Virus record (IMG/VR): IMGVR_UViG_3300033150_000513
Location: 1-38,554 of that record
DNA length: 38,554 nucleotides
Origin: a virus
Direction: 5' to 3' (one strand)
The notes beneath the pieces were generated by a model, which saw nothing but the letters and a program-made list of their open reading frames with translations, searched no databases and was not told where the DNA came from. Shown in pieces: positions 24,788 through 38,554 of this stretch (within the stretch, counting starts at the first letter, position 1; each line of letters starts with the position of its first letter). Both the position numbers and the translations under genes were made by a program.

Positions 24788-25570
24788 TCATGCGTTTGCT
24801 ATGACGTTCTCGATCGCAGCGGTCGTCGGCACCCACGAGCCTGTGTGGTTCGGATGCAGTCCCGTCTCGATACTTTCTGCCTCATCGACCGGGTAGGGGT
24901 TGTTCGCAATCACATCTTGGCACTCCTCGCAGTCTGGGCTACAGCCCACGAGCTCGACTTGCATGGCGCCCACCTCGGTCAGCTCCGCAATCTTGCCCAA
25001 GTTGTAGGACTTCACGACTGTCGTTCTGGCAATCGTCTCCGCCCGGCCAAGCGTTGCCTCCCCCTTCGCTTTCAGTGCTTCTTGCATGTCCCGAATACTC
25101 CAGCCTTCACGCATCCCTTGCTCGATAACCTCTCCCACCGTCGCCTTAACAGTAGTGCTCATTTGATCCGTTAGCCACTCTGCTAGCTCTTCTGCTTTTG
25201 CTTTGAGCGTCTCGACGCCCCTCACATTCACAATGTCGTATCCTATGACCTTGTTCAGACCATCAGTCGCATCGGTGGCTCCGAGCATGTATCCCTTGAC
25301 GGCGAACGTGGTGGTCAACTTCTTGAGTTCGCTGACGAATCGCTCGAACGGCGGCCTCTTGGTCTCCAGTAGACCGGCGTCTCTCATTGCGTCTCTGGCG
25401 ATGGTATTCCAGAACCGACCATACAGCGAGCGGATTTTGCTCAGAAGGGCGAACTCCAGCTTCAGCCTGGCTCTCCAGTTTATCGGCACGCCTCGACGAG
25501 CGATGCGGCCTATGGAGCGCTTCTCGCCGTCCCCGATCTCGATCGCCTCTATGAGCTCTTCAACCATCAT
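24788..25570 (-). CDS. MuF / SPP1 gp7-like head morphogenesis protein
   Basis: A 260-residue protein right after the portal (overlapping stop). The C-terminal part has RAETIARTTVVKSYNLGK (about 183-200), CSPDCEECQDV with a CxxC-like pair, and LHPNHTGSW (about 243), the conserved elements of the phage Mu F-like domain. These proteins enter the capsid with the portal and help DNA handling. ATG at 25570 or 25567. Confidence 0.85.
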   Translation of the reverse strand: MMVEELIEAIEIGDGEKRSIGRIARRGVPINWRARLKLEFALLSKIRSLYGRFWNTIARDAMRDAGLLETKRPPFERFVSELKKLTTTFAVKGYMLGATDATDGLNKVIGYDIVNVRGVETLKAKAEELAEWLTDQMSTTVKATVGEVIEQGMREGWSIRDMQEALKAKGEATLGRAETIARTTVVKSYNLGKIAELTEVGAMQVELVGCSPDCEECQDVIANNPYPVDEAESIETGLHPNHTGSWVPTTAAIENVIANA

Positions 25571-27048
25571 ACTCGCCGTCCCAATACGTTGCGCACGATC
25601 GTTGTGGCACCCGCCTCGCCGGTGTCAGGATCGTCCTCAAACGGCAACACGCCAACTGTCGCCGCATTCGTTACTGCCGTAACCATCGGCGGGATGTCGT
25701 CTTCAATCATCGGCGGGAAGCTCGCCTGGCACATACCAGCCTTCTCCTTGAAGCGTGTCCATAGCACGAATTGGCACACTCCCTCGTAGAGAGCCCGTAG
25801 TTGGGCCTGCCACATCCGAGCGTGCTTTATGACTGGCAGTTCCATGCTTTTCGCGGTTGCAAGCGTGCCCTGACTGATGTCCCCGGTCAGGTAGTTGTGG
25901 GGTAGGCCCGTGCCGGCGCCGATCATGAGCTCGATGCGTTTGCCCAAGTCGCTGGCGATCTGGATGCCACCGGTCGGTGTGTGTATCGGAGCATTCTCGA
26001 CATTCTGGCTTTCCATGAGGCTACTGCCCGCTACCGCTTTGGTCGCAAGCTGCCGATAGACCTTCGTGATAAATGCCCGCTCTCTCGCCATCTGGCTCTT
26101 GGTGCCCGGCTTGACCTTCCGCTTCCATGCGAACTGCAACAGGCTCCTCAAGAACTGCATGGCGTCCCTGAAGACCGTGTCATGCTTCTCCAGCCAAGCG
26201 ACAATGCGAGCGGTTGCAGGCCAACCCCGGTTCTCCAGCGGGTCGGAGCCGAAGGTCTGGTGATAGACCCAGACGCCCCGCTGAACTCGCTTGACTATGC
26301 CGTTCACGAACGCTTTCCTGTCGTGCGGGAATTGCCCATATCGCTGGGCGAGCGTTGTGCTTGCATACAGGACGGAGTTACCTTCGTTGCGGTTCACGCC
26401 GGGTGAATCGAGATTGAACTCAATCTTGTGATGTCGCTTCCAATATGCCAGCTCGGTCGCTGAGTCGTAGGGGTCGGTTACGATCGGGTCTCGGATGTCG
26501 AAGGTATCAAACAGGCGGATCGACACCACATCGGTTATCGGTTGCCTTATGGTCGGATCAGAGTTACCGAATAAGGCCACAAACAGCTCGCCATCGTATT
26601 GCAGCTTGTCGGACACCTGGTATTGCGCAACGGAACTGGTGAAGATTTTCTGGTTGATCTTGTCGTTCCAGAACTCCTCGAGGTATTCCTGTTGCTGGTC
26701 GACGGTGCTGTCGTTGCCCTGTGGTAGTTGCACGGTAGGGCACTTTATCCCGCCGTCTCCTAGAGCAAACTCTGTGGAGTGCCGTATCGGACTATATCCG
26801 AGCGACTTCGAGAAGTAGGCGGCTCGTGTCCGGGTTACAGCCTTCTCTCGTGTGTCCGTATCACTCGCAGAGAAGCCATGCTCGCCAACATTGCCACCGA
26901 TAATCCTGAAGCCTTGAGTGTTCATAGCTTCGGCGAGCTGTATCGCTGTGCTCTCAGCGAGCTGGTCGAGGTCGTCCTCTGCGGCCTTGTTGACCTCTTG
27001 GATGATGTCATCTACAATCTTGCTAACTCGCTTCTCACTAAGCCACAT
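25567..27048 (-). CDS. Portal protein
   Basis: A 493-residue protein between terminase and MuF genes. The start at 27048 is preferred because GGAG lies six bases before it. Segments such as YDGELFVALFGNSD, VVSIRLFDTFDIRDP and LPHNYLTGDISQGTLATAKSME (the last in shortened form LPHNYLTGDISQGTLA) fit phage portal proteins, which form the dodecameric ring for DNA entry and tail docking. A Gly/Thr-rich C-terminus completes it. Confidence 0.85.
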   Translation of the reverse strand: MWLSEKRVSKIVDDIIQEVNKAAEDDLDQLAESTAIQLAEAMNTQGFRIIGGNVGEHGFSASDTDTREKAVTRTRAAYFSKSLGYSPIRHSTEFALGDGGIKCPTVQLPQGNDSTVDQQQEYLEEFWNDKINQKIFTSSVAQYQVSDKLQYDGELFVALFGNSDPTIRQPITDVVSIRLFDTFDIRDPIVTDPYDSATELAYWKRHHKIEFNLDSPGVNRNEGNSVLYASTTLAQRYGQFPHDRKAFVNGIVKRVQRGVWVYHQTFGSDPLENRGWPATARIVAWLEKHDTVFRDAMQFLRSLLQFAWKRKVKPGTKSQMARERAFITKVYRQLATKAVAGSSLMESQNVENAPIHTPTGGIQIASDLGKRIELMIGAGTGLPHNYLTGDISQGTLATAKSMELPVIKHARMWQAQLRALYEGVCQFVLWTRFKEKAGMCQASFPPMIEDDIPPMVTAVTNAATVGVLPFEDDPDTGEAGATTIVRNVLGRRV

Positions 27049-28309
27049 AGTCCGCTCCAAACATTGCGTCAATCTCCGGGTCTGGCCCCATGACGGCTAG
27101 CTCTTCTGTCGGTTCCTCTAATAACTGGGCTTCGGCTTCTGCCTTCGCCATAGCAGTTACGAGGTATCGCAAGGCGTCCATAGCGTGGTCGTTGATTTTG
27201 AGGGGGCGCTCGTTCTTGCCGAACATATAGCGCTTAATCTCCCAGAGCGTCTTCTCGCATGACTCATCGATGCGTATCCTGTCGTGGTCGAGCCAGTTCT
27301 TTACGGTCATAATGCCCTTGTGCACGTTCTTGTCGGGCGACGATACAGCCGGCAAGCCATGCCGTATCAGTTCCTCTACGAGCTCCGGGGCCTCGCTATC
27401 CACCACCACGAGTGCTGGGGCGATGTCGGATTGTTCGCATATGGCCACGATGTCTGCTTGCGTGTATGAGTCGCCATAAACCTCGTCATAGACCGTCAGC
27501 ACTCGCCCGTCGTAGTCGCAGAACAAGACCGCCGCTGCGCTACTATAGGCGGGGTCAATCGCTATGAGGCAGTTATCGGGTTTGTAGTCAGAGACAACGT
27601 GCTTGACTGGGTCGAACTCGTGATAGATAAGCCCCGTCAGCACTCTGAGGTCTCCGCCAATGCGCCGTGCGAATACGTCTCTCGCCAGACTATTCTCGAG
27701 GGCTTTGATTTTGGGATCGTCTCTGCCCAGCGGATAGACCATGCTGTTAGCCCATGCAGGGAACACGGCCACCTCAGCTTCCGGGTCTTTGCTCCAGTCT
27801 CGATAGACCCGATAAATCCAGTCGTATCCGGGATGGCTTGGTTCAGGGACGTTGGTTCCGAGCTTCAGTGTGCCATTACGAACGTTGCAGGCGATCTGAC
27901 AGTTCACAAAGGCCGTCTCTGGGCAAAGCGATGCCTCGTCAAGGATAACGAGATCGCAGTCCCAACCTTTGATGCTTTCGGGTTTCTCACCTGTCTTGAA
28001 CTGGATCATGCCGTTGGAGGGCGTAATCCACACATGCTCCTGCGAGTTGTGATTGACCAACACGCCGATCTGGCTCATGTAGTTCGTGAGCTGCTCCATG
28101 ATCGGGCGCATCACGGGGAAGTTCGGCCCCACATAGTAGCATCTTGCACCGGGTAGGCGTAAGGCCACGTCTACGAGCTCTCGTGTGAACTCAAAGGTCT
28201 TACCACTTCGCTGGGCGCCGATGTAGAGCTGACGCTTGGCCATGCTGGTGAACATCCGCATCTGTATCCCGGTGAACTCAGGACTGTCAATCGCCATTCT
28301 TCTTGCCAT
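27038..28309 (-). CDS. terL: Terminase large subunit
   Basis: A 423-residue ATPase-nuclease. Walker A GAQRSGKT (31-38), Walker B LVILDE (120-125), and the nuclease acids Asp252 (AIDPAYS), Asp304 (VVDSEAPE) and Asp378 (NDHAMDAL) are all present. It packages DNA through the portal and cuts it. The start overlaps the small terminase gene. Another ATG at 28297 is possible. Confidence 0.95.
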   Translation of the reverse strand: MARRMAIDSPEFTGIQMRMFTSMAKRQLYIGAQRSGKTFEFTRELVDVALRLPGARCYYVGPNFPVMRPIMEQLTNYMSQIGVLVNHNSQEHVWITPSNGMIQFKTGEKPESIKGWDCDLVILDEASLCPETAFVNCQIACNVRNGTLKLGTNVPEPSHPGYDWIYRVYRDWSKDPEAEVAVFPAWANSMVYPLGRDDPKIKALENSLARDVFARRIGGDLRVLTGLIYHEFDPVKHVVSDYKPDNCLIAIDPAYSSAAAVLFCDYDGRVLTVYDEVYGDSYTQADIVAICEQSDIAPALVVVDSEAPELVEELIRHGLPAVSSPDKNVHKGIMTVKNWLDHDRIRIDESCEKTLWEIKRYMFGKNERPLKINDHAMDALRYLVTAMAKAEAEAQLLEEPTEELAVMGPDPEIDAMFGADYVA

Positions 28310-28694
28310 CCTCTACTTCCCCTCGCAGCTCCGCCTTAAGCCGGGTCATCTCTACTGCTGTTAGCCGGGGGACGATAGCTCCACCGGTCAGGTCGAGCTC
28401 CTGAACTACCCGGTCAACCGCCTTACCTTCTGTCCTGTCGAGAAATATCTTGATCGCCTCAAAGTGATACTTGTCGTTCGGATTCAGCGCAGCCCGGATG
28501 ATGCCCAACGCTATCGCGTGGCTATATGTGATGTCTTTACCGCCGGGGCCTTTCATCTTCTTCTTGCCCAGCCGATAGAGCCAGTCCGATACCGTCCGTC
28601 CGGGCTTCCGCCCTCGGGGGCCTCTCACCTCGCCGGGCTTGATGGGCGGCATTAGATTCTTCAGACTGTTAGGATGCATGCGACGTTTAGCCAT
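28287..28694 (-). CDS. Terminase small subunit, DUF5681-like
   Basis: A 135-residue protein. KPGEVRGPRGRKPGRTVSDW (about 19-38) and YHFEAIKIFLDRTEGKA (about 76-92) are the usual pattern of the DUF5681 phage family, thought to be the small terminase. It would recognise the packaging site. It overlaps the large subunit and is the first gene after the late promoter at 28747..28776. Confidence 0.75.
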   Translation of the reverse strand: MAKRRMHPNSLKNLMPPIKPGEVRGPRGRKPGRTVSDWLYRLGKKKMKGPGGKDITYSHAIALGIIRAALNPNDKYHFEAIKIFLDRTEGKAVDRVVQELDLTGGAIVPRLTAVEMTRLKAELRGEVEDGKKNGD

Positions 28695-28746
28695 CGGCCC
28701 TCTTATCGAGATTACATACGATCATTTCCCACTACACTCCACTTTG

Positions 28747-28776
28747 ACCATAGAGGCCGCGTAGAGGGTATGTCAA
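28747..28776 (-). promoter_or_regulatory. Promoter of the packaging and structural operon
   Basis: TTGACA (28776..28771), an 18-base spacer and TATGGT (28752..28747), about 50 bases before the small terminase. The same boxes and spacing occur at 32333..32362. With 5-bp tract A just upstream, it leads the whole late operon. Confidence 0.65.
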
Positions 28777-28845
28777 GCCGGTGGGATGGTTTTTCTTGAC
28801 TTTTACGGATTCGCGGGATTCACAATGGTGCGGGTGGGTTGGAAA

Positions 28846-28935
28846 AATCCTTGACTTGTCATGTCGCGCCTGGCCGCACCTGGCCACGCCCGGCCACGCC
28901 AAGCCCAGCCTAGTCCGGCCCAGCCTCGTCTTGCC
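28846..28935 (-). repeat. 5-bp periodic tract A (18 units)
   Basis: Eighteen five-base units in exact phase. In transcript sense the unit is GGCNN with GAC/GTC variants; the first units are GGCAA GACGA GGCTG. It ends in CAAGGATT. It lies between the zinc-finger gene and the late promoter. No coding frame is likely, since a 5-base period does not fit codons. Confidence 0.85.
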
Positions 28936-28952
28936 GCGATGTCGTTACAGTA

Positions 28953-29228
28953 TCACAGAAAGATTGTCAAAGTCAACACTGACCGTTTGCCCTCGATAAG
29001 GCTTTCGGGTCTGAAGACCGACTCGTCCTCAACACCCTTTTTCCTCATGATCTTCTCTCTGCACTCGGTCGAGCAACATCGTATCTGATGCCGTTCGTCA
29101 AACCACGCAGTTTGGGCATGGCATCCCTCGCAGTAGTAAGGGATTGGACTACGGAACATGCGAGGCTCGACGCCTTCCGGCGTGCTCTCGCCGATCCGAG
29201 TGTTAGGGTATAGGTCGTCGAACTTCAT
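28953..29228 (-). CDS. Small zinc-finger-like protein (91 aa)
   Basis: A 91-residue protein starting at 29228 in an ATGA overlap with the RuvC-like gene. YYCEGC (Cys33, Cys36) and CCSTEC (Cys51, Cys52, Cys56) form a probable zinc site, similar to HNH- or treble-clef-type knuckles, but no HNH catalytic residues follow. It may bind nucleic acid or assist the nuclease it is coupled to. Family unknown. Confidence 0.65.
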   Translation of the reverse strand: MKFDDLYPNTRIGESTPEGVEPRMFRSPIPYYCEGCHAQTAWFDERHQIRCCSTECREKIMRKKGVEDESVFRPESLIEGKRSVLTLTIFL

Positions 29229-29749
29229 TGAGCGACTTGCCTGCCTTGCGCTTTTCGTCTGCCCCACTCTGCTATCAGAATGGCGTCAAACTCGCCGTCC
29301 TTCGTCTTTCTGAACGAGTGGTAGGGGAATAATCGCCTCGCCGCCTCAAAGGCTTGGAGCTTGCTCTTGCCCTTCTGTGGCGTAAAGAACTCAGCCTGCC
29401 ACTTTCGGGCGGTTACGATCTGGTGTGGGATTTCGAGAGCCTGGAGCAGCATGAGCCATAGACCATACCCGAAGCCGGTTGTGAAGATGGTGTTGCCACC
29501 TTGTAGGACGCCAAGTATCTTCTTGGTTTTCGGGTCTCGCCTTACTGCGGGCATAGGCTGTTGCCGTTCGATGGCTACCAGGTCCATCTTTTTGAGTTCG
29601 TGGCCTATGTCTGCCATAGCCGCGAGGTCGTAAGCCTGGTGCCCCTTTTCGCCTGCGATCAGCGGGGTTGGCATGACCTTGAGTATCGCTCCTGTGTCCC
29701 TGAGGATTGCGATCGCTCCGTGTTTTCCTGGATCAATCCCTCCGTACAT
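29225..29749 (-). CDS. RuvC-like Holliday junction nuclease
   Basis: A 174-residue protein. GGIDPGKHGAIAIL (Asp6), LVAIERQQ (Glu61) and KDGEFDAILIAEW (Asp151/Asp155) are the acidic motifs of the RuvC/RNase H-like resolvase fold. The start at 29749 has AGAGGAGG seven bases before it. It would resolve branched DNA before packaging. It follows the helicase gene and is coupled to a small membrane protein gene by TAATG. Confidence 0.8.
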   Translation of the reverse strand: MYGGIDPGKHGAIAILRDTGAILKVMPTPLIAGEKGHQAYDLAAMADIGHELKKMDLVAIERQQPMPAVRRDPKTKKILGVLQGGNTIFTTGFGYGLWLMLLQALEIPHQIVTARKWQAEFFTPQKGKSKLQAFEAARRLFPYHSFRKTKDGEFDAILIAEWGRRKAQGRQVAQ

Positions 29750-29871
29750 TATCGTGCCTCCTCTATAATTGCGCAAATCACTGCGCATCCAATGAAACTA
29801 AATGCCGCTATAAATACAAGACCTAGTATCACCCCAATGACCCATTTGAAGCCTTTTTCAACAGTTTTCAT
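29749..29871 (-). CDS. Very small membrane protein (40 aa)
   Basis: A 40-residue frame: a short basic start (MKTVEKGFKW) and a membrane helix (VIGVILGLVFIAAFSFIG). GGAGG lies seven bases before the ATG; the stop overlaps the next start (TAATG). The hydrophobic helix and coupling on both sides make it credible. Function unknown. Confidence 0.6.
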   Translation of the reverse strand: MKTVEKGFKWVIGVILGLVFIAAFSFIGCAVICAIIEEAR

Positions 29872-29873
29872 GG

Positions 29874-31241
29874 TCAGTCCTCCGTCTCGTTAGTTACCCA
29901 ATCTGGTAAACGTTCTTGCTCTCCTTCGGCTGCATTTTTGAATGATGTGAATGCTCGTTGGAACATCAGCATAAAGGTCCCGGTTGGTCCGTTACGTTGT
30001 TTGGCCAGAATACATTGTATCGGAATGTTTGGTTTCTCACTTTTGCTTTTGCTATGCATTTCTGGGTTGTGAAGAAATAGCACTAGGTCTGCATCCTGCT
30101 CTAGGGACCCAGTTTCCCGTAAGTCTGATAGTCGCGGTCGGCGATTCTGTTGCTCACTAGCCCTCGTTAGCTGGGAAAACGCCACCAGTGTCACATTCAG
30201 TTCGCGTGCGATAGCTTTCAACGATCGGGAGATAGCTGTCATCTCTTGCTGTCTGTTTTCACTTTTTTTGGGATATTCCATCAGTTGGATGTAGTCAACC
30301 ATAATCAACTGAATCTTGAATTGCGCACAGGCGAGTCGAGCCTTAGCCAGCAGTTCGATAGGCCGGAGTCTTGGCGACTCGTCAATGTAGATCGGCATTT
30401 GAGCGAGCTGTTCCTGCGCTTCATGGATAGCGTATCGAGTTTGTGGACTGATCTGGCCAGCTCGCAAGCTCTTCAATGAGATGGGGGTCTGAGCTGCGAC
30501 TAACCTGTTGCCGAGTTCTGTCTTAGACATTTCGATTGAGAATATCAAGACGCCAGTATTTTGTTGCGCAACATTTCGCGCAATGTCAAGCATTAGTGAA
30601 GTCTTACCGACGCTAGGTCTGGCACCCACGATTATTAGTTCGCCTGGATGCAAACCTTGTGTGCGCTTGTCGAGCTCGATAAATCCCGTAGGAATACCAG
30701 GCGTCTTCTTTATCCCAGCAGCGATGGCTTCTGCTGACTCGACCGCTTCTAATGTAACGTCAGAGATGGGGCTTAGTTTGCGTTGCACACGTTCAATTGC
30801 TACATCAGCCGCTGCACGCTGCAAAATCTCCGATGCTTTTTCGCCAGAAATAGGATCGCCGGAGACTTTGTCGTAAACCATTCCCGAGGCGTCCATCACT
30901 TGTCGAACACGGTATCTGTCCTCAACTAGCTGAGCATAGTACCGAATGTTGGTAACAGCGGACACATCCATGGCCAGCTCGGATAGATAGACTTTGCCGT
31001 CCGTCCCACCTAGCCAGCCACGCTTCTCCAGCTCCGCTCGCACCAGAATGTAGTCAATTGGAATGCCTTGCTTGAACAGCGACAGCATCACGGTGTAAAT
31101 ACGCTCATGTTTTGGTAGATAGAAAAATCTGGGCTCAAGCGTCTCGACTACCTCAGAAATCCGATCCCCATAGAGTAGAATGCCGCCTAATACGGCACGC
31201 TCTGCCTCAAGATCGTGAGGAGCTATCTTGGCTTCTGGCAT
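29874..31241 (-). CDS. dnaB: Replicative DNA helicase, DnaB type
   Basis: A 455-residue protein. The start at 31241 follows GGAGAA by seven bases. PHDLEAERAVLGG (about 8-20) begins the N-terminal DnaB domain; Walker A is GARPSVGKTS (about 206-215); the Walker B region is IMVDYIQLM (about 297); LSDLRETGSLEQDADLVLFL (about 365-385) holds the arginine-finger region of the RecA fold. It unwinds DNA at the fork. It follows the initiator gene with only one base between. Confidence 0.93.
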   Translation of the reverse strand: MPEAKIAPHDLEAERAVLGGILLYGDRISEVVETLEPRFFYLPKHERIYTVMLSLFKQGIPIDYILVRAELEKRGWLGGTDGKVYLSELAMDVSAVTNIRYYAQLVEDRYRVRQVMDASGMVYDKVSGDPISGEKASEILQRAAADVAIERVQRKLSPISDVTLEAVESAEAIAAGIKKTPGIPTGFIELDKRTQGLHPGELIIVGARPSVGKTSLMLDIARNVAQQNTGVLIFSIEMSKTELGNRLVAAQTPISLKSLRAGQISPQTRYAIHEAQEQLAQMPIYIDESPRLRPIELLAKARLACAQFKIQLIMVDYIQLMEYPKKSENRQQEMTAISRSLKAIARELNVTLVAFSQLTRASEQQNRRPRLSDLRETGSLEQDADLVLFLHNPEMHSKSKSEKPNIPIQCILAKQRNGPTGTFMLMFQRAFTSFKNAAEGEQERLPDWVTNETED

Positions 31242-31242
31242 G

Positions 31243-32211
31243 TCATTCTTCTCCATATATGTCATGCAGCTTATCACGAGAGTTGTTCTGTAAACAGCTC
31301 TTAAGGAAGTTGTTGGTTTCAAATCGAGTATTGGAAACCCTCGTGGCTCGTGCCATCGTTTCAATGAGTGTCTGGTGATCGACTACCGGTACCTCCTGCC
31401 ACTTATATTTGCCGATCGACTTCCCGTCAGCCAATAGTAGCAGCTCATTGAGTATCGACAGTAGATACGTAGTATCCCTGAGAGTGCCATGCTCAAGGAA
31501 TGGGCCTCGGTTATGTGGCGTGAGGCAGTGGGCAATATACTCGATGACTACCCGACGTTCTTTTCTCTTGAACTTCTTAATCAGGTTCATTGCCAAGCAC
31601 TTTGCCTCCGAACCATCGTGTGTACGTACGCCTGGACTAGGTTCTTGAGTAAGAGGAAGTATATCAGGTCCGGATGGTTCCGACAATCTGCGTTTAGCAG
31701 ATTCGGTCGGGACAATAGATACAGATACATCCGAAGGTACAGCTACATCTACATATACATATACAGGGGGGAGCACGCTCCCCTTTTTGGGGAGCACGCT
31801 CCACAATTTGGGGAGAGCATTCTCTAATTCGGGGAATGCCTTCTGCGTCTCTGCTGGCAGCTCATCCCATTTGGGGAGCGGGCACTGTAAATCCCACTTT
31901 CGTTTCTTTGGGGTGATCTGATACTTAAGATGCTTAGGGAGCAGCAATATCTCCCCATCCTTGGAGGGATAGCGGTAGGCAAGTCTGAGCTTCGTCGTAA
32001 TCATGTCGAGCGCCTTATTGACTTTCGCCTCGGTCGATCCGATGTGATGTGCGAGCTCAAATGCATCAATCTTCATGAGTCCCAAGTCATCACTCTTCAA
32101 GATACACTCCAGAAAGATGATGCGCTGCTCAAAGCTAAGACGTAACACCCGTCCGTCTTCATTGAAGTTGTTCGGGATGATCGTGAACGAACGCTTGATG
32201 TATTTAGACAT
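31243..32211 (-). CDS. Replication initiator with N-terminal winged helix
   Basis: A 322-residue protein. The N-terminus (about 1-110) is a winged-helix-like domain: IDAFELAHHIGSTEAKVNKA, then YPSKDGEILLLPKHLKYQ. A low-complexity linker follows (about 120-165), ENALPKLWSVLPKKGSVLPP and VYVYVDVAV, encoded by tandem DNA repeats. The C-terminal third is helical and basic. The order initiator then DnaB resembles lambda O/P and DnaD-type systems, where the first protein binds the origin and loads the helicase. The origin itself may lie in the linker DNA. AGAGG precedes the ATG. The family is uncertain. Confidence 0.7.
   Translation of the reverse strand: MSKYIKRSFTIIPNNFNEDGRVLRLSFEQRIIFLECILKSDDLGLMKIDAFELAHHIGSTEAKVNKALDMITTKLRLAYRYPSKDGEILLLPKHLKYQITPKKRKWDLQCPLPKWDELPAETQKAFPELENALPKLWSVLPKKGSVLPPVYVYVDVAVPSDVSVSIVPTESAKRRLSEPSGPDILPLTQEPSPGVRTHDGSEAKCLAMNLIKKFKRKERRVVIEYIAHCLTPHNRGPFLEHGTLRDTTYLLSILNELLLLADGKSIGKYKWQEVPVVDHQTLIETMARATRVSNTRFETNNFLKSCLQNNSRDKLHDIYGEE
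31718..31842. repeat. Iterons and hexamer run inside the initiator gene (candidate origin)
   Basis: GGGGA recurs at exactly 21-base intervals at 31768, 31789, 31810 and 31831. The first three units each hold an inner inverted repeat; the first is GGGGAGC-AC-GCTCCCC. Directly beside them (31718..31765) are eight hexamers of form NNTACA, one degenerate, giving an A+T-richer flank. Iterons next to a melting region inside the initiator gene are what lambdoid origins look like. Confidence 0.6.
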
Positions 32212-32323
32212 CGGTTTCCTCTGGAGATAAACCAGGGCCTCGGGTCGCTATGAGCCAGTCCACCTGAACGGAAGGATACCCTCGGCCCTGATAATACCAG
32301 TATAAACCTGTGAACTTACTCAT
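32204..32323 (-). CDS. Possible leader peptide (39 aa)
   Basis: A frame of 39 codons starting MSKFTGLYWYYQ and ending in a stop that overlaps the initiator's start. It lies directly after the promoter, so its mRNA leader would be almost nothing, and the only ribosome site is a weak GGTGG. It could be a leader peptide or chance. Confidence 0.35.
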   Translation of the reverse strand: MSKFTGLYWYYQGRGYPSVQVDWLIATRGPGLSPEETDV

Positions 32324-32328
32324 AGCGA
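32245..32328. promoter_or_regulatory. 10-bp inverted repeat beside the replication promoter
   Basis: TCGCTATGAG (32245..32254) and CTCATAGCGA (32319..32328) are exact inverted copies 64 bases apart. The right arm starts five bases past the -10 box. A second pair, AGGGCC (32234..32239) and GGCCCT (32284..32289), lies within the same leader. This may be an operator pair for a looping repressor or an RNA structure. Confidence 0.5.
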
Positions 32329-32332
32329 GTCC

Positions 32333-32362
32333 ACCATATCACACGTCTTTTGCCGTTGTCAA
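32333..32362 (-). promoter_or_regulatory. Promoter of the replication operon
   Basis: TTGACA (32362..32357), an 18-base spacer and TATGGT (32338..32333). It has the same boxes and spacer length as the late promoter. It reads into the initiator, helicase and nuclease genes. 5-bp tract B ends 18 bases upstream. Confidence 0.65.
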
Positions 32363-32379
32363 GTCCTTTTGACGAATAG

Positions 32380-32454
32380 TTTCCTTGCCTTGACTTGCCA
32401 GGCCCCGCCCTGCCCCGCCCTGTCCTGCCGAGCCGGGTCCAGCCCCGCCCCACC
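32380..32454 (-). repeat. 5-bp periodic tract B (15 units)
   Basis: Fifteen units in exact phase, transcript sense GGTGG GGCGG GGCTG and so on, ending GGCAAGGAAA. It faces the inverted tract B' across a 31-base gap. Confidence 0.85.
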
Positions 32455-32485
32455 TCGGTGCAATAATCCGTCCTCTATTCGATTG

Positions 32486-32630
32486 GGCAAGGTCTGGGGA
32501 GGTCTGGCTTGTCGCAACGGCATGGTTAGGTTTGCCTCGGCTTGCGCTGTCGCTTCGGCTAGGTCTGCTCTGGGTTGTAATGTCATTTGGCCTGGCTTGG
32601 GTCGGAATTGACAGGACTGGAATGTCGCTC
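32486..32630 (+). repeat. 5-bp periodic tract B', opposite orientation
   Basis: A more degenerate tract whose GG lies on the plus strand: GGCAA GGTCT GGGGA GGTCT GGCTT, with three-base and two-base phase breaks later. It touches the end of the gene at 32629. In the minus transcript it reads as C-rich units that can pair with the G-rich tract B, giving a long imperfect hairpin. Confidence 0.65.
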
Positions 32631-33291
32631 AGTCTAGCTTCGTCAACTCAACCACCTTGAACCGTCCATAACCCTGACTGCGTGAAGCGCCTAGACCACC
32701 ATCTTGCGCCAACGATAATGTTCTTGCAAGCGCTTTTTTCGTGAACTTCGTCTGTCCCTTCAGTATGCAGACCCTGAACTTCAATAACGGTCGCTCGACA
32801 TAGTCGTTGCGCTTCAGGATGTTGCGAGGCCCTTGGGGACCGGTGATGTGTCCGCACGTGTCGATGCTGCTCAATGGGGTATTCGGGTCGGTGCCCAAGT
32901 AGATGCGGTCTTGATCCCATGGTCGTTCAGGGTTCTCATCTTCATCTGGGAACACAAATAGGGCGTGCTGGAGTATCTGTTTACTGCCACGCTCCGTCCG
33001 GGTGATGCCAAGCACTTTTGCATTCTCCTTGATCATGGCCTTGATCTGCCTGGTCTCGATGTAGTGCCCACGCTGCTCGTCAACCTTGAAGCCTGACCAT
33101 GCCCAGTCCTCTGCTTCTGTTAGGTCCACCTCGCTGACCGTCTCGTCTGTCCTGTCGGTTATGCCTCTGGCCTCCAGCCAGTTCTTGATCAGCTTCTCAT
33201 TGCGGGGGACGCCGCCAAGCAGCTTGTCCTCAAACTTGATCGCCACTCGATAGATGTCATACAGCTCCTTCCGATCTGCTAACTCTCTCAT
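32629..33291 (-). CDS. RAMP-like protein with C-terminal glycine loop (220 aa)
   Basis: A 220-residue protein with an AGGAGG site. The C-terminus LSLAQDGGLGASRSQGYGRF (192-211) is a glycine-rich loop followed by a final strand KVVELTKL. This matches the GxGxxRxxGxG(R/K)F loop of RAMP proteins (Cas5, Cas6, Cas7, Csm3/4 and similar), which bind RNA. The N-terminal segment LYDIYRVAIKFEDKLLGG begins with a strand as RAMP folds do. No Cas gene or CRISPR array is in the genome. The preceding gene ends in a similar loop. RAMP membership is inferred by eye from this loop. Confidence 0.55.
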   Translation of the reverse strand: MRELADRKELYDIYRVAIKFEDKLLGGVPRNEKLIKNWLEARGITDRTDETVSEVDLTEAEDWAWSGFKVDEQRGHYIETRQIKAMIKENAKVLGITRTERGSKQILQHALFVFPDEDENPERPWDQDRIYLGTDPNTPLSSIDTCGHITGPQGPRNILKRNDYVERPLLKFRVCILKGQTKFTKKALARTLSLAQDGGLGASRSQGYGRFKVVELTKLD

Positions 33292-33323
33292 ACTACCTCC
33301 TACTTCTGTGTTGGTGAATTATG

Positions 33324-33418
33324 AATCCTTGCCTTGCCTTGCCCAGCCAGGTCAAGCCTTGCCCGGCCTTGCCACGCTGAGCCGCATCCCGCCCTGCCAC
33401 GCCTCGCCCGGCCTTGCC
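33324..33418 (-). repeat. 5-bp periodic tract C (19 units)
   Basis: Nineteen units without phase breaks, transcript sense GGCAA GGCCG GGCGA GGCGT, ending GGCAAGGATT. It lies 33 bases before the start of the RAMP-like gene at 33291, so it is in that gene's 5' leader. Confidence 0.9.
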
Positions 33419-33435
33419 ACATGTGAGTAGTAGTG

Positions 33436-33510
33436 CGTCCTTACCTTGTCTTGCCAGGCCCCGCCCGGCCTCGCCAAGCCTCGCCCTGCGCGGCCTTGCC
33501 CGGCCAGGCC
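33436..33510 (-). repeat. 5-bp periodic tract D (15 units)
   Basis: Fifteen units, transcript sense beginning GGCCT GGCCG GGCAA and ending GGTAAGGACG. A 17-base non-periodic spacer separates it from tract C in the same orientation. It follows the stop of the gene at 33529. Confidence 0.88.
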
Positions 33511-33528
33511 ACGTTGGATTGAACTAAA

Positions 33529-34104
33529 CTACATTTCTTTCACTTTATTCTCCCACTTGAACTTAACCGGCCTATACCGACCATACAGCCCGCTTTGACG
33601 TGGGCGCCAGCGACCGATCCCAATGAACTGCCCGGCCTCTCTGAGATGGTGCTCAAATACCTCCGGCGTGATCGTATCATCCAGAATGTTATACGTTACT
33701 TTGCCGCTCCATTCCGGGATCACTGGGAAGCACTTTTTCACACGCTTGGTGCCGCCCCTCTTGCCGTCCGCAGGAACCAGAAGCCACTCGCCCTTGACCG
33801 TCTCTCTCGTCTCAGGCAGCGTCAGGCCTTCCATCACCATCACTCCAGCTTCAAAATGCTTGGTGTAGGTGTTCTTACCCCTGCCCGGTATCTTAATACC
33901 GAGAAACTTGGCCACCTCCTCGAGGGACTTCTTGAACTGCATGGGCGGGATGAAGATGTGTCCTGTCTCATCGTAGTGCGCCCGCTCCCGCCAGGTGCGT
34001 CTCTCGTATGCGTCTGAAGTCTCCTTGTTCAATTTCGGGGTATCATGGAACCTCGACTGCGAATACGGTGATATGCTTACCAACTCCACAACAACTGATC
34101 TCAT
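33529..34104 (-). CDS. RAMP-like conserved phage protein (191 aa)
   Basis: A 191-residue protein with GGAGG five bases before the ATG. N-terminal SISPYSQSRFHDTPKL (about 10-25), then IFIPPMQFKKSLEEVAKFLG, and at the C-terminus FIGIGRWRPRQSGLYGRYRP (160-179) before a last strand. The loop shares G-x-G-x-x-R...G-x-Y-G-R with the next gene's, so the two look like paralogous folds. I associate the N-terminal pattern with a conserved phage family of unknown function. An RNA-binding role would follow if the RAMP reading is right. Confidence 0.55.
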   Translation of the reverse strand: MRSVVVELVSISPYSQSRFHDTPKLNKETSDAYERRTWRERAHYDETGHIFIPPMQFKKSLEEVAKFLGIKIPGRGKNTYTKHFEAGVMVMEGLTLPETRETVKGEWLLVPADGKRGGTKRVKKCFPVIPEWSGKVTYNILDDTITPEVFEHHLREAGQFIGIGRWRPRQSGLYGRYRPVKFKWENKVKEM

Positions 34105-34147
34105 TTCGTCCTCCGTCTGTTTTTTGCCTAATCCTAACTCAAATCAA

Positions 34148-34237
34148 AGTCCTTGTCTTGACTTGCCATGCCTCGCCCCGCCTTGCCGGGCCTCGCCATG
34201 CGCGGCCTTGCCGAGCCCGGCCAAGCCGCGCCGCGAC
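34148..34237 (-). repeat. 5-bp periodic tract F (18 units)
   Basis: Eighteen units, transcript sense GTCGC GGCGC GGCTT GGCCG, ending GACAAGGACT. It starts directly after the gene at 34241 and ends 44 bases before the start at 34104. Confidence 0.88.
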
Positions 34238-34240
34238 GAT

Positions 34241-34744
34241 TTACATCCTCTCTAACGCTTCCAACACATGCCCGTAGGGCAGAACTTTCTGTGCCTGCAC
34301 AACCCTCCCTTCAATCTGTTTAAGCGCTTTCGGTCTGGCCATCGCTTCCTGCACCATAAGCAGGCTCTGCGTGCCCAGCCATTTGATGCGTTGGGCCTCT
34401 GTGAGTTCCTCATCGTCAACGCAAGTGCTTTTGCGTAGCCCACGCCTGGCTGTGCGACCGATATGCTTCACATCACTTTGCAACGACTCGACTGTCTCGG
34501 CGCTATTCGCGCGACGCAGACCTACGCTCCGTATCGTTACGAAGTGTATGCGATCCTCTCGCATGAGATACCGCCGTGCCGAAGTCAGTGCGCCACGCCG
34601 CTTGCGAACGTCGCTGCCGATCGCCTCCGATAGCTCCTCATACATGATTGGTTCGCCTGGGCTGACCTTTCGCAGCTTCTCGATCAGCTTCAGCGTGTCA
34701 ACCGTTCTGCGGAACATCGGTTGCCGTTCTAGGTTTTTGGTCAT
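34241..34744 (-). CDS. Winged-helix-like regulator candidate
   Basis: A 167-residue protein. EPIMYEELSEAIGSDVRKRR followed by GALTSARRYLMREDRIHFVT (about 30-70) looks like a winged helix-turn-helix. The rest is helical and basic (HIGRTARRGLRKST). It sits alone between tracts E and F. It could regulate early transcription. AAAGGAGG precedes the ATG. The family is not recognised. Confidence 0.6.
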   Translation of the reverse strand: MTKNLERQPMFRRTVDTLKLIEKLRKVSPGEPIMYEELSEAIGSDVRKRRGALTSARRYLMREDRIHFVTIRSVGLRRANSAETVESLQSDVKHIGRTARRGLRKSTCVDDEELTEAQRIKWLGTQSLLMVQEAMARPKALKQIEGRVVQAQKVLPYGHVLEALERM

Positions 34745-34778
34745 TCTATCCTCCTTTCTGTCTTAGTATTACAATGAA

Positions 34779-34878
34779 TGTCCTTGCCTTACCGCGCCAG
34801 GTCTTGTCTTGCCGAGCCGTGTCCAGCCTGGCCGTGTCCTGCTTCACCCGGCCACGCCCGGTCCGGTCCCGCCTCGCC
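34779..34878 (-). repeat. 5-bp periodic tract E (20 units)
   Basis: Twenty units, transcript sense GGCGA GGCGG GACCG GACCG GGCGT, ending GGCAAGGACA. It lies between the small membrane protein gene and the start of the gene at 34744 (35 bases away). Confidence 0.85.
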
Positions 34879-34896
34879 GCAGCCAATCTCTATTCC

Positions 34897-35076
34897 TCAT
34901 TGTCTTTGTGCCAACCATAACAGCACGTTCAGTATCAGCCCGCACGCCAGGCCCCAAGCGAGGCCCTTACTGAATGCCTTCTCCTCGAGGTCTTTAACGT
35001 AAAGGGCGATCCAGTTGGGATCACGCTGGCTCAGAAGCCACGTTAGAATCTCAATCGTGGTCGCATATTTCGTCAT
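34897..35076 (-). CDS. Small membrane protein (59 aa)
   Basis: A 59-residue frame in an ATGA-like overlap with the previous stop. It begins MTKYATTIEIL and has a C-terminal membrane helix (GLAWGLACGLILNVLLWLA). Its overlap and hydrophobic end make it a likely gene. Function unknown. Confidence 0.6.
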   Translation of the reverse strand: MTKYATTIEILTWLLSQRDPNWIALYVKDLEEKAFSKGLAWGLACGLILNVLLWLAQRQ

Positions 35077-35468
35077 TTGTTCTTACCTTTCCATCTAGGA
35101 TCGCCCTTGAGAAACTTGATTACGGCTTCCGCCAGCTCATTCTTTCGGGGTTTACACTCTACGCTATACGGCTCGTAGCACACCATGAGGCTTGAGAGGC
35201 CGCATTGGCAGTTCTCTTGGCCTGGTGACTTACCGTATAAGCCGATATAATTGTTGGCTTCGAGATACTGCTTGACGATTTCCTCGACGATCAGGGGTTT
35301 GCCCTCTGGCTGCGACGTGTTGCTTCTGTAAGGTCTGCAAATATTGACAAGGGCTTCGCAGTGCGTCATAAGATCGCCGAGGTGGCAGGTGCAGTCCCCG
35401 AAGTAAGACCGCAGCCCAACATACCCATGCTGCTCAAGATATTTCTTGACGATGCTTCTAACGTTCAT
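35073..35468 (-). CDS. Protein with two CxC zinc-type repeats
   Basis: A 131-residue protein; the start at 35468 follows AAGGAGG and overlaps the upstream stop (ATGA). It holds two copies of one domain: residues 2-47 (Cys26, Cys28, Cys37, Cys44) and 59-107 (Cys87, Cys89, Cys97, Cys105). Each is IV..YL...GY.GL...C.C.L..L followed by two more cysteines and a Pro. The spacing suggests a small zinc-binding module. A third copy ends the neighbouring upstream protein. Confidence 0.7.
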   Translation of the reverse strand: MNVRSIVKKYLEQHGYVGLRSYFGDCTCHLGDLMTHCEALVNICRPYRSNTSQPEGKPLIVEEIVKQYLEANNYIGLYGKSPGQENCQCGLSSLMVCYEPYSVECKPRKNELAEAVIKFLKGDPRWKGKNK

Positions 35469-36022
35469 GATTCCTCCTTCGGCTTTTGTGCCCCATACAT
35501 ATACTCGCAGCTGTCGCCGAACTTCTGCTTCCATCTATAATCAGCGGGAACCAAGTACCCCGGCCGACAATTGCCCGGATTCTTACATGACTTCTTTACG
35601 AATAGTGATCCCAGACTGCAGCCACACGGCTCCAAAGGATTGTAAAGCCCCTCATAGCCATGCTCGTCAAGCCACTGTGTTACGATGGCACGAACATCCA
35701 TATGTTTCTGTTTTGATGGCGTGTCCAGTCCCATCATTTGCTTGAAGACTAGCACGAAGGCGGACACCGCAGAATCGAACTGCCTCAGCCAGGCCTCATC
35801 CTTGTCGGGGAATAACTTGCGTAGTTCTGCTAACGTCATAACTTCTCCTTTCTGCTTCTGTGAGCTATGTTGTTCTCGTAACACCTTCAGCTGCCGTATG
35901 ATAGCGCCAATCATCCGATCAGCCTGCCAAAACCACTCCTCATGCTTACAGGGCAAATCCTCACGCAGCTCCCTCATGTCGATCATCACTTCTTGCCTAT
36001 TTTTCCTGCCTCTAAATCCCAT
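35465..36022 (-). CDS. Modular protein: duplicated helix module + CxC domain
   Basis: A 185-residue protein. Residues 13-49 and 62-97 are two related helical segments (ELREDLPCKHEEW and ELRKLFPDKDEAW). Residues 108-156 hold the CxC domain (Cys133, Cys135, Cys146, Cys152) found twice in the next gene. In front of Met62 the DNA has AAAGGAG five bases before ATG, so an internal start at 35839 is likely, or this is the scar of a gene fusion. Function unknown. Confidence 0.65.
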   Translation of the reverse strand: MGFRGRKNRQEVMIDMRELREDLPCKHEEWFWQADRMIGAIIRQLKVLREQHSSQKQKGEVMTLAELRKLFPDKDEAWLRQFDSAVSAFVLVFKQMMGLDTPSKQKHMDVRAIVTQWLDEHGYEGLYNPLEPCGCSLGSLFVKKSCKNPGNCRPGYLVPADYRWKQKFGDSCEYMYGAQKPKEES

Positions 36023-36353
36023 GTTCAGCCTCCTTTCCTATGTCTGGTATGTAATCCCCTTTTTTCTCAGCTATACGTTGGAGCGGCGACCGCAGATGGC
36101 CGTGCTCAGGATGCTCGATACATAGATACTCACGGCACATTCTCGGTCGCCGGTCATAGATAGAGCATTTCCCATCTTTGAATGCGATGCATTGTATCGC
36201 CCCACTCTCCGTAACCCGCTGCTTCATGCGCTTCACCCCGTCTCGAGTGATTTCAATCATCTCTTCTGGCACGTCTTGACCATCGTCATAATCCATCTCA
36301 AGGATCAGACGCTGACAGCATCGACCACATTGCAGACATTTGTAGCTGGTCAA
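36012..36353 (-). CDS. YkgJ-type cysteine cluster protein
   Basis: A 113-residue protein with CLQCGRCC near the N-terminus and QCIAFKDGKCSIYDRRPRMC with CREYLC, the pattern of YkgJ/PF03692 proteins, which bind iron or zinc through cysteines. A TTG start at 36353 is preferred: GAGGT lies seven bases before it and it overlaps the upstream stop. A GTG at 36389 is possible but poorly spaced. Function in phages is not known. Confidence 0.75.
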   Translation of the reverse strand: MTSYKCLQCGRCCQRLILEMDYDDGQDVPEEMIEITRDGVKRMKQRVTESGAIQCIAFKDGKCSIYDRRPRMCREYLCIEHPEHGHLRSPLQRIAEKKGDYIPDIGKEAEHGI

Positions 36354-37234
36354 CTTCTTGACCTCATAGCTTTTGGCACTTGCGTCCACACCTTCCCATC
36401 CGTCTCAATTGGCGGCGTGTGAACAATCTCCCCGGTTCCGTCCTCTGATGGCAGATATTCCGGCCACTCAGAAATATGGGATGGTTTACAGTACAACTGC
36501 TTCACAAAGAACGGGACGCCGGCAGCAATACACTGATCTCTCAAGCTCCGCACCCAGTCCAAGCGTGTCGGCCTCGCTCCCGGCCCTGACTCGCAGCCTA
36601 CAATCACCCAGTCAAATGCCTTTAGCCATTCTTTGCGCAGAATAACCGGGCCAAGTAACGGCTCGAGGGATACAAACTTGTGCCCCGGCCAGTTCTCAAT
36701 TAGTTGGGGTATTCGTATGTCTGCCCAATGCTGGTTCTCCACTGATACGCCAATCCATACACAATGCTTGATAAGATTGTATGCCCTATCATAAATCCCT
36801 TTCTTAGCGTCTATCAGTTGCTCATATGTCAATGCAATCTTGCAAATCCTACTCATGTTGGCGGGTCGTTTGGTCAGTATGAGATAGCTATGTTGTGGGG
36901 CATTGATCATAATTTGGAGCGCCTCAAATAGCCTCGTAGTTAGCACCTCATCGTGAAAGATGTCGCTCATACTCCCCACGAATATCCGCCGCCCACTCTT
37001 GGGCTTCACTGCCCGCCGCAAGGGCTCGAGCTCAACGTTGATACGACCCGTCCAGCGTAAGCGCCCACCCACCTTCTCTACTACCCCCTCGTAGCGTTTG
37101 GCCGTCGCTTGGATGTGGGCTAGTCTATAAGCTCTACGCAAGGCATAGCAGTTCTCGCAACCCTCGGAGACCTTCTGGCAGCCAAACGTGAAGTTGCAGC
37201 TATCGTCTGTCCAATCAATCTTGCTTTTGCTCAT
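36350..37234 (-). CDS. Gp37/Gp68 family protein (DUF5131)
   Basis: A 294-residue protein. IDWTDDSCNFTFGCQKVSEG and CENCYA (Cys13, Cys19, Cys26, Cys29) open the family, followed by IFVGSMSDIFHDEV, LILTKRPANM, WIGVSVENQ, FVSLEPLLGP and WVIVGCESGPGARP. The cysteine cluster and barrel-like repeats suggest a radical-SAM-like fold, though the CxxxCxxC motif is not standard. The family is common in phages; its substrate is unknown. An AGGAGG site lies 11 bases before the ATG. Confidence 0.85.
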   Translation of the reverse strand: MSKSKIDWTDDSCNFTFGCQKVSEGCENCYALRRAYRLAHIQATAKRYEGVVEKVGGRLRWTGRINVELEPLRRAVKPKSGRRIFVGSMSDIFHDEVLTTRLFEALQIMINAPQHSYLILTKRPANMSRICKIALTYEQLIDAKKGIYDRAYNLIKHCVWIGVSVENQHWADIRIPQLIENWPGHKFVSLEPLLGPVILRKEWLKAFDWVIVGCESGPGARPTRLDWVRSLRDQCIAAGVPFFVKQLYCKPSHISEWPEYLPSEDGTGEIVHTPPIETDGKVWTQVPKAMRSRS

Positions 37235-37261
37235 GTCTAAAGATTCCTCCTATGTAGTGCA

Positions 37262-37321
37262 GCTGTGCCCGGCCTGACTGACAGGCGATGATATGAGGTA
37301 GGGTCAATGACCGGACACAGC
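37262..37321. promoter_or_regulatory. Imperfect inverted repeat in the leader of the Gp37/Gp68 gene
   Basis: GCTGTGCCCGG (37262..37272) and CCGGACACAGC (37311..37321) match in 10 of 11 positions as inverted copies, with 38 bases between. It lies in the 100-base gap before the Gp37/Gp68 gene and may be an RNA hairpin or protein site. No promoter of good quality is beside it. Confidence 0.4.
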
Positions 37322-37334
37322 ATAGTAACTGGGT

Positions 37335-38108
37335 CTATACTCCTTTGCTTTTTGCTTGCAGCCGCTTGAATACTCTCACGCCGGGGATCGGCATCGTGTC
37401 CTTCGTCGCCAGCACCTGTCGCTTCAGAGCCGCCCGGTCAATCGTAAACAGCGCCCGTAGGTGCGGATGTGAGGTTGCCGCCGCCTCGAGTAGCTTATCC
37501 TGATCCAGAATCTCATAGTCCCAGACCTCGGCCATCACAACTCCTTGCGGCGTCTCTGGCTTGGGCACGATGTTCGGCACAATCGCTCTGGCCTTTGCCT
37601 CGTGCTCCTCAGCCCTAGCCTCGTCCCGCTCCGCCGCTCTCAAAAGCTTCTCACGCTGCTTGGCTTCCCGTGCCTTCTCGGCCTCCGCCCTCTGTCGATC
37701 TGCTCGCTCCTTCGCCTCCGCTGCAATTCGCAAACGCCGCTCTCGCTCGGCCTCAGCTCGCCGCTCTTCTCGGAGCTGTTGCTGGCGTCTCTCCTCTAAC
37801 AGCCGCTGGGTGTAGGCAGTCATCTGCTTGCTGACGATCTCCGCCGCCTTCTTTAACGTCTTGATCGAGGGGTTGAAAAGGGCGTCAATCTGGCGACCAG
37901 CCTCAAGGACTGGCTTCTTAAGTTTTCGCCTAATCGCTTCGATCGCCTTCGCCTTCGCTACCCATTCGTTTCGGATGTCCGCCGCTCGCTGATTCGTCAA
38001 TGCGCTATCCACGACAACCTCTTGTGCAGCCGCCAGCGCAGTCTCTGCCTCCTTGCTGACCTCTACTGCTTGCTGCTTAGCCTCGCTCAGCGCCAATTCC
38101 ATGCTCAT
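37335..38108 (-). CDS. Coiled-coil protein linked to the recombination genes
   Basis: A 257-residue protein; the start at 38108 is chosen because GGAGG lies six bases before it and it overlaps the exonuclease stop. Residues about 20-85 are helical, 100-185 are a long Glu/Arg/Ala coiled coil (RRAEAERERRLRIAAEAKER), and the C-terminal domain (about 195-257) ends TMPIPGVRVFK. Phage proteins of this plan, ending in IPGVR, often accompany annealase/exonuclease genes. Their exact role is unknown. Confidence 0.7.
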   Translation of the reverse strand: MSMELALSEAKQQAVEVSKEAETALAAAQEVVVDSALTNQRAADIRNEWVAKAKAIEAIRRKLKKPVLEAGRQIDALFNPSIKTLKKAAEIVSKQMTAYTQRLLEERRQQQLREERRAEAERERRLRIAAEAKERADRQRAEAEKAREAKQREKLLRAAERDEARAEEHEAKARAIVPNIVPKPETPQGVVMAEVWDYEILDQDKLLEAAATSHPHLRALFTIDRAALKRQVLATKDTMPIPGVRVFKRLQAKSKGV

Positions 38109-38554
38109 CTGATACCTCCGTTGATCGCTTTGTAAACGTTCAAACAACTCAGAAACAACGATAAATCTCGCCTGTCTCGCATCGGCTCAATCCGATACTG
38201 ACCGTCTTGACCTAACAGAATCGCAAATCGCCCTATATGCCTACCTCCCTTCAGCTCGTGATATGCCTGTTCGTATGCCGCCAACTGTGGCCCCACACTT
38301 ATCGTTATGTGTGGAGCATTCGACGTTTTCCAATCAAATACCGCCCGCCTGGGCGCATTGGTCTTGGTCATAACCCCAACCGCATCAAGCGTCCCGGCAT
38401 AACCGTAAGTCAGGCTGTAAACCGGCTCTTCAATCACTTCCGCTTGAAAGTCAGTTTCGTCTCTGAACCGGATCCACGCCTCCACAAACGGCTCGATCTT
38501 CGGGTCTATCCTTGCGATCTTTCGACCGCGTAACAGGTTGGCGATCACATCGTG
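38105..38554 (-). CDS. PD-(D/E)XK exonuclease, main part (start at 267 across the join)
   Basis: The remainder of the gene that begins at 267. The full protein is 200 residues. LDAVG (Asp108), VFDWKTS (Asp125, Lys127) and QLAAYEQAYHELKGG (141-155) form the PD-(D/E)XK core and the downstream Gln-Tyr motif of RecB/Cas4-like nucleases. Its likely role is 5'-to-3' or end resection that produces single strands for the neighbouring annealing protein. GTG at 38548 is only an internal codon. Some such proteins carry an Fe-S cluster, but the required cysteines are absent here. Confidence 0.85.
   Translation of the reverse strand, partial: HDVIANLLRGRKIARIDPKIEPFVEAWIRFRDETDFQAEVIEEPVYSLTYGYAGTLDAVGVMTKTNAPRRAVFDWKTSNAPHITISVGPQLAAYEQAYHELKGGRHIGRFAILLGQDGQYRIEPMRDRRDLSLFLSCLNVYKAINGGIR
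38441..38554. repeat. Terminal direct repeat, right copy
   Basis: Identical to 1..114; see the left copy. The exonuclease frame reads through without a change, which confirms the two ends join. Confidence 0.95.

Follow-up and report, generated by a model that had tools for sequence, protein, structure and literature searches.

What do two neighbouring genes for RAMP-like proteins, set among periodic DNA tracts, do in a virus? The sequence-only reading of this locus saw in the gene pair and its tracts its best candidate for a new system, in which RAMP-like proteins would bind a periodic RNA. The window (the whole stretch of DNA that was analysed) is a 38,554-base virus record that encodes terminase, portal, head, DnaB and resolvase proteins. 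Its portal (region 25567-28309, minus strand) is closest to that of a Methanoculleus virus (25%), and the best matches of the terminase in the same region include a haloarchaeal virus (27%), both being distant matches. A DnaD-like helicase-loader ORF contains 21-nt tandem repeats (31768-31844). Two neighbouring minus-strand ORFs (35073-35534 and 35465-36022) contain a cysteine-rich motif around YLxxxGYxGLY, counted by eye as three copies, and a DUF5131 protein (36350-37234, minus strand; E 3e-65) also matches two PADLOC candidate-defence models. The features of the RAMP locus are as follows.

34781-34878, minus strand: vrRNA-like tract A (GGYNN), preceding the gene for the vap-like protein
34241-34744, minus strand: 167-aa vap-like accessory protein, a conserved neighbour of vipr
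34150-34232, minus strand: vrRNA-like tract B (GGYNN), in the gap that separates vipr from the vap-like gene; its 3' units are constant
33529-34104, minus strand: vipr, 191-aa Vipr-like RAMP protein, with a match to SUSP1 Vipr, a Csm3-like model and a GIGRxRP...GRY glycine loop
33438-33513, minus strand: vrRNA-like tract C (GGYNN), between the 191- and 220-aa ORFs
33326-33418, minus strand: vrRNA-like tract D (GGYNN), between the 191- and 220-aa ORFs
32629-33291, minus strand: 220-aa RAMP protein from a second family, found mostly in viruses (structural model; Pfam RAMPs 0.024; 52 viral loci)
32486-32626, minus strand: array of the 220-aa system, GAC plus 5-nt units, in four elements with 24 of 25 full units ending in C
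32382-32459, minus strand: vrRNA-like tract E (GGYNN), after the 220-aa ORF
28848-28935, minus strand: vrRNA-like tract F (GGYNN), lying 3.4 kb away from the others

Both RAMP ORFs (33529-34104 and 32629-33291, minus strand) were confirmed as real, and the C-termini claimed for them are present in sequence and in predicted structure: the 191-aa protein ends in GIGRWRPRQSGLYGRYRPVKF and the 220-aa protein in GLGASRSQGYGRFKVVEL, each with a glycine loop followed by the last strand of its model. Structure prediction of each protein alone, followed by structural search, recovered in both models a RAMP core, the fold of class 1 CRISPR-Cas effector subunits. The 191-aa model (pLDDT 94.3) matches best 6ifk_E of a type III-A Csm complex (Z 12.3, rmsd 3.5, 163 residues aligned), and the 220-aa model (pLDDT 82.5) matches best 8yhd_O of a type VII complex (Z 12.8, rmsd 4.9, 164 aligned); we take these chains of large complexes to be Cas7 subunits. 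Csm3-titled entries reach Z 11.7 in the match lists of both. By Z score both models are nearest to Cas7-type subunits, and both proteins are predicted to be Cas7/Csm3-like RAMP proteins, in line with the fold first proposed for them. Sequence libraries detect the glycine-loop part alone, as Csm4, Cas6 or RAMP, and under the cut-offs where any exist (e.g. Pfam RAMPs at 0.024 on the 220-aa protein).

A preprint of April 2026 (PMC13142463) is the one relevant paper found in literature searches on Vipr, on vrRNA with RAMP, and on RAMP with tandem repeat and Cas7. Its main text describes VIPR, in which the single-RRM RAMP protein Vipr is paired with vrRNAs of 9-16 YNNGG repeats and a 3' tail; dsDNA is recognised by skipping a base for every NN pair, and competing phages are repressed. 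Binding of vrRNA by Vipr is shown there for SUSP1 and P. fulva VIPR only, and the 1-nt skip rule and repression for SUSP1. Alone, the 191-aa protein matches PDB entry 36pp_D, "SUSP1 Vipr", at E 7e-4; a profile of 27 viral sequences that excludes SUSP1 matches it at E 6.4e-8, and an HMM built from five sequences picks out the ORF of SUSP1 from its phage record (2.5e-6). A stronger match from another profile (1.1e-37) was set aside as circular, because that profile includes the SUSP1 row. Judged by these matches, the 191-aa protein is a Vipr homologue.

The periodic tracts of the earlier reading are likewise real. A window scan for in-phase GGY triplets gave six GGYNN tracts, each on the minus strand and each with 11 to 15 in-phase units, whereas dinucleotide shuffling (1000 rounds per tract) never gave more than 7; the 9-16-repeat tract with variable NN described for VIPR is thus present six times. 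At their 3' ends, two or three near-constant AA units are followed by GGA. In the SUSP1 control record, the scan placed one tract upstream and three downstream of vipr, in agreement with the main text of the preprint (PMC13142463). Tracts B and C (34149-34223 and 33437-33511) are 83% alike across 75 nt, and the two guides may therefore share ancestry or a related target. Tracts E and F are each closely followed downstream by a promoter-like site (32362-32333 and 28776-28747, minus strand), with TTGACA, 18 nt and TATGGT in both.

Tracts of this kind recur beside Vipr homologues. Searching viral contigs for Vipr returned 33 loci. Of 31 distinct proteins, 29 were aligned, excluding L027 and L041, which are truncated at one end; in 28 of the 29 rows a tract lies within 1.6 kb of vipr, the exception being L005. 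Among these 28 the scaffold is GGY in 10, CGY in 13 and GAY in 5. In one locus (L004, 4761-5950), CGYNN vrRNA-like tracts alternate with a recurring hairpin-rich spacer (GGGTGCCCAGCACC and GGTGGGCAACCACC). Vipr residue 19 (F19 in the window) sorts G-first from C-first scaffolds nearly perfectly, a separation matched by 0 of 500 plain label shuffles and resting on one supported (four in all) independent tree contrasts, too few for a test; a role of residue 19 as scaffold reader is kept as an idea. No column of the alignment stands out as tied to the second scaffold base (162 of 500 shuffles).

A homologue of the neighbouring 167-aa protein (E<0.01) turned up in 32 of the 40 Vipr-hit locus records, a set that counts the window, duplicates and phage records. 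No firm Pfam domain was found in the protein. It bears a weak likeness to SUSP1 Vap1 (prob 25, E 7.6e-4) and may bind DNA. On homology, the 191-aa Vipr, its Vap-like neighbour and the six minus-strand GGYNN tracts form a VIPR system, which is already known (PMC13142463, main text). The claim of a new system accordingly fails for the GGYNN part, and the suggestion that a RAMP steps along a periodic RNA coincides with the published mechanism of the Vipr family; what the literature searches and the main text of the preprint did not show is the 220-aa RAMP neighbour.

The 220-aa protein belongs to a separate RAMP family that is almost purely viral. Relatives were found at 52 viral loci. A scan of 84,980 species, each represented by a single cellular genome, added three loci; one host family contributed 2 of its 394 genomes, and of 50,697 phage records a single one, that of Microcystis phage Mae-JY09, has a relative. 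When Mae-JY09 and the L001 contig were searched for Vipr, neither matched, which is a weak negative. Alignment of the 220 family with the Vipr family by hhalign (E 7.4e-7, prob 92; with fewer rows, E 2.5e-5, prob 75) suggests that the two are remotely related; against SUSP1 Vipr alone, the 220-family profile A6 reaches prob 3. Ahead of the array described next, 24 of 50 loci of the 220 family share an upstream ORF family, no member of which was seen in the window.

Two bases past the stop codon of the 220-aa gene begins an array of a different and equally regular kind, which rules out reading this stretch as a degraded GGYNN tract. Its four elements (32626-32585, 42 nt; 32584-32552, 33 nt; 32551-32514, 38 nt; 32513-32486, 28 nt) consist of GAC followed by five-base units, and the GAC-anchored score of 25 is reached by 0 of 5000 shuffles, whose mean is 0.67. 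Such arrays were first noticed by eye after three genes of the 220 family, as GAC and then five-base units ending in CC, and were tested in 50 distinct loci of the family with the element regex C[GA]AC followed by four NNNYC units. This regex is met by one of the window elements, and all four are recovered under the GAC reading. Across the 50 loci it has 229 matches on the strand of the gene versus 17 on the opposite strand, and same-strand versions with units of 3, 4, 6, 7 and 8 bases have 13, 3, 19, 7 and 5 matches. Bare CGAC anchors in the flanks of the gene number 1061 on its strand versus 363 on the other. Near the gene and on its strand, the frequency of C after CGAC rises to 0.58-0.64 with each fifth base, as far as offset 30; this period is absent on the other strand, beyond 1.8 kb and inside the gene. 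Successive elements are spaced by 3 modulo 5 in 55 of 112 cases, because GAC contributes three bases.

Within the units (1063, excluding the first unit of each element), bases 1 and 2 are nearly flat (each base 0.22-0.30), base 3 is C in 0.46 and G in 0.24, and bases 4 and 5 are YC as imposed by the regex. The free dinucleotides avoid TA (observed/expected 0.55), which singles out no reading frame because viral DNA avoids TA in every phase; their pooled G+C lies under that of every coding phase, nearest to positions 1-2, and codon-phase tests of the arrays did not single out positions 1-2. Hammerhead ribozymes, named as a VIPR variant in the main text of the preprint (PMC13142463), were not found between elements in an Rfam scan of 12 sources. 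In L044-L048 the units after the gene seem to end in AC rather than YC, and the second scaffold may therefore vary too. Two loci (L060 and L063) have GAC elements on the opposite strand as well (4 and 8 matches), unlike the other loci.

Each kind of repeat keeps to one of the two proteins. With the window excluded, a GGY, CGY or GAY tract on the strand of the gene occurs in 0 of 49 loci of the 220 family versus 29 of 33 Vipr locus records (some contigs having been fetched twice), and at least two GAC elements occur in 35 of the 49 versus 1 of the 33 (L024). At least one element occurs in 38 of the 49, and at this regex none in the other 11; two of the three cellular loci (L095 and L096) have elements beside the gene. 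The window carries both kinds. The GGYNN tracts thus seem to go with the 191-aa Vipr and its Vap-like neighbour and the 220-aa protein with a different array, so that the idea of one common set of tracts serving both proteins does not seem to hold. Nor is the 191-aa/220-aa pair a conserved gene pair: none of the 38 other Vipr-hit locus records shows the pairing. Of the two outcomes named beforehand as refuting the earlier reading, neither occurred, since both folds contain the RAMP core and most homologues of either protein lie near repeats of their own kind.

Because of these separate associations, and of the four-element array beside the 220-aa gene itself, we read the window as holding a pair of neighbouring RAMP systems, each with guide-like RNA of its own kind. 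They are probably single-RAMP, RNA-guided virus systems, VIPR and a 220-aa RAMP with its GAC array, that follow the same logic with different RNA. In the first, to which the VIPR mechanism is carried over because of homology, the 191-aa Vipr would bind short transcripts of the GGYNN tracts (vrRNAs), each 5-nt unit probably taking up about one subunit. The GGY triplets would form the scaffold, and each NN pair would read two bases of the DNA target before one base is passed over; once bound, the complex would block transcription of a gene of a rival element, assisted by the Vap-like protein. In the second, the 220-aa RAMP, a putative remote relative of Vipr, would bind transcripts of the adjacent GAC-(NNNYC)n array, in whose units the first two bases vary freely and the end is YC, with a 3-nt phase shift from GAC wherever one element (about 28-48 nt) gives way to the next. 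We infer that tracts and array are expressed and bound in this virus. That the 220-aa system is RNA-guided at all, with the array as guide, is suggested by its free dinucleotides, its fixed strand and its link with the RAMP gene. The targets are probably genes of rival viruses or mobile elements, which would be shut down.

How new the second system is depends on the preprint, and the two-system reading itself leaves the VIPR type of the 220 family open. With nearly an even chance, the family is one of the seven VIPR types of the preprint, e.g. one with staggered arrays, in which case the juxtaposition alone would be novel; this overlaps with the two-system reading. The main text of PMC13142463 gives GGY/NN or a related consensus for all seven types and mentions staggered arrays with overlapping vrRNAs, and the remote relation of the 220 family to Vipr points the same way. 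Against this, neither a GAC-punctuated NNNYC array nor two RAMPs in one VIPR locus is described in that main text, although the supplement may differ, and the 220 family is nearly absent from cellular genomes, whereas the VIPR set is given there as 56% proviral. We tentatively propose instead that the 220 family represents a hitherto undescribed class of viral RAMP guided by RNA, with a lone Cas7-like protein and a CRISPR-like GAC-(NNNYC)n row that stores information in free dinucleotides, kept almost only by viruses and joined here to VIPR, giving one virus two gapped guide codes.

It is unlikely that the locus is instead one composite VIPR, in which the 220-aa protein would be an extra subunit (a cap, like Cas5/Csm4) acting on the GGYNN RNAs. 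The 220-aa gene does lie within the same minus-strand row, between GGYNN tracts, and its best matches in defence libraries are Csm4 (Cas5-like) models; yet its model is nearest to Cas7-type subunits, it is missing from all 38 other Vipr-hit records, and its relatives have GAC arrays and in none of 49 loci GGYNN-type tracts.

The tracts could also be protein-binding or replication elements (iterons or leader repeats) rather than guides, which we consider very improbable. They do sit in intergenic gaps before genes, and no target was found for the guides: exact NNx patterns (9 or 10 units) of four of the six window guides (B, C, D and F) had 0 matches each in the viral contigs, and in a local test of 107 distinct guides against the fetched loci the 1-nt skip gave no more matches with real than with shuffled guides (one of each at 0.85 or above). 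The 3-nt skip row of this test is trivial because the tracts themselves are found, and the top 32-base match (25 of 32, the guide of L030 in L029) was inspected and taken as chance. On the other side, variation falls on the NN bases and spares the scaffold, the strand is fixed relative to the RAMP gene, each kind of repeat tracks its own RAMP family, and the SUSP1 tracts are demonstrated as vrRNAs in the main text of PMC13142463. A plain class 1 CRISPR-Cas system was rejected, with no identical-repeat array in 27500-38554 and no other Cas protein among ten neighbours scanned, where the 220-aa protein alone matched, weakly, as Csm4/Csm3.

If the 220 family is RNA-guided, the reading of two systems would mean that gapped guide codes exist in several forms and with more than one scaffold, i.e. 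GGY, CGY or GAY in Vipr relatives and YC with GAC breaks in the 220 family. Two distant RAMPs with their own RNAs in one virus would offer a direct test of the residue-scaffold reading and would bear on the origins of Cas7-type subunits and CRISPR arrays; rows of elements split by a short constant motif resemble a CRISPR array more than single vrRNAs do.

Compared with known systems, the first of the two resembles the VIPR of SUSP1 and P. fulva (PMC13142463, main text) in its Vipr homologue, its 11-15-unit GGYNN tracts with near-constant 3' units, its phage-borne state and the small conserved gene adjoining vipr, with no cas operon seen in the window. It differs from VIPR as described there in its six tracts, mostly in gaps of the gene row, and in the second RAMP and different array next door, and from SUSP1 VIPR in the tail of its tracts. 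The 220 array shows a 5-nt period with two free bases, but its scaffold is YC with GAC breaks rather than the GGY of the VIPR consensus. Both proteins are like the class 1 subunits Cas7/Csm3 in predicted fold (Z about 12) and glycine loop, and repeated subunits on RNA are likely for them too; unlike the continuous spacers of class 1 CRISPR, the tracts of the window hold variable dinucleotides. The glycine-loop region of the 220-aa protein also resembles type III Csm4/Cas5, matching Csm4 models at E 4e-5 to 8e-4 over about 40 residues only and far under the NCBIfam cut-off (18.7 of 55 bits).
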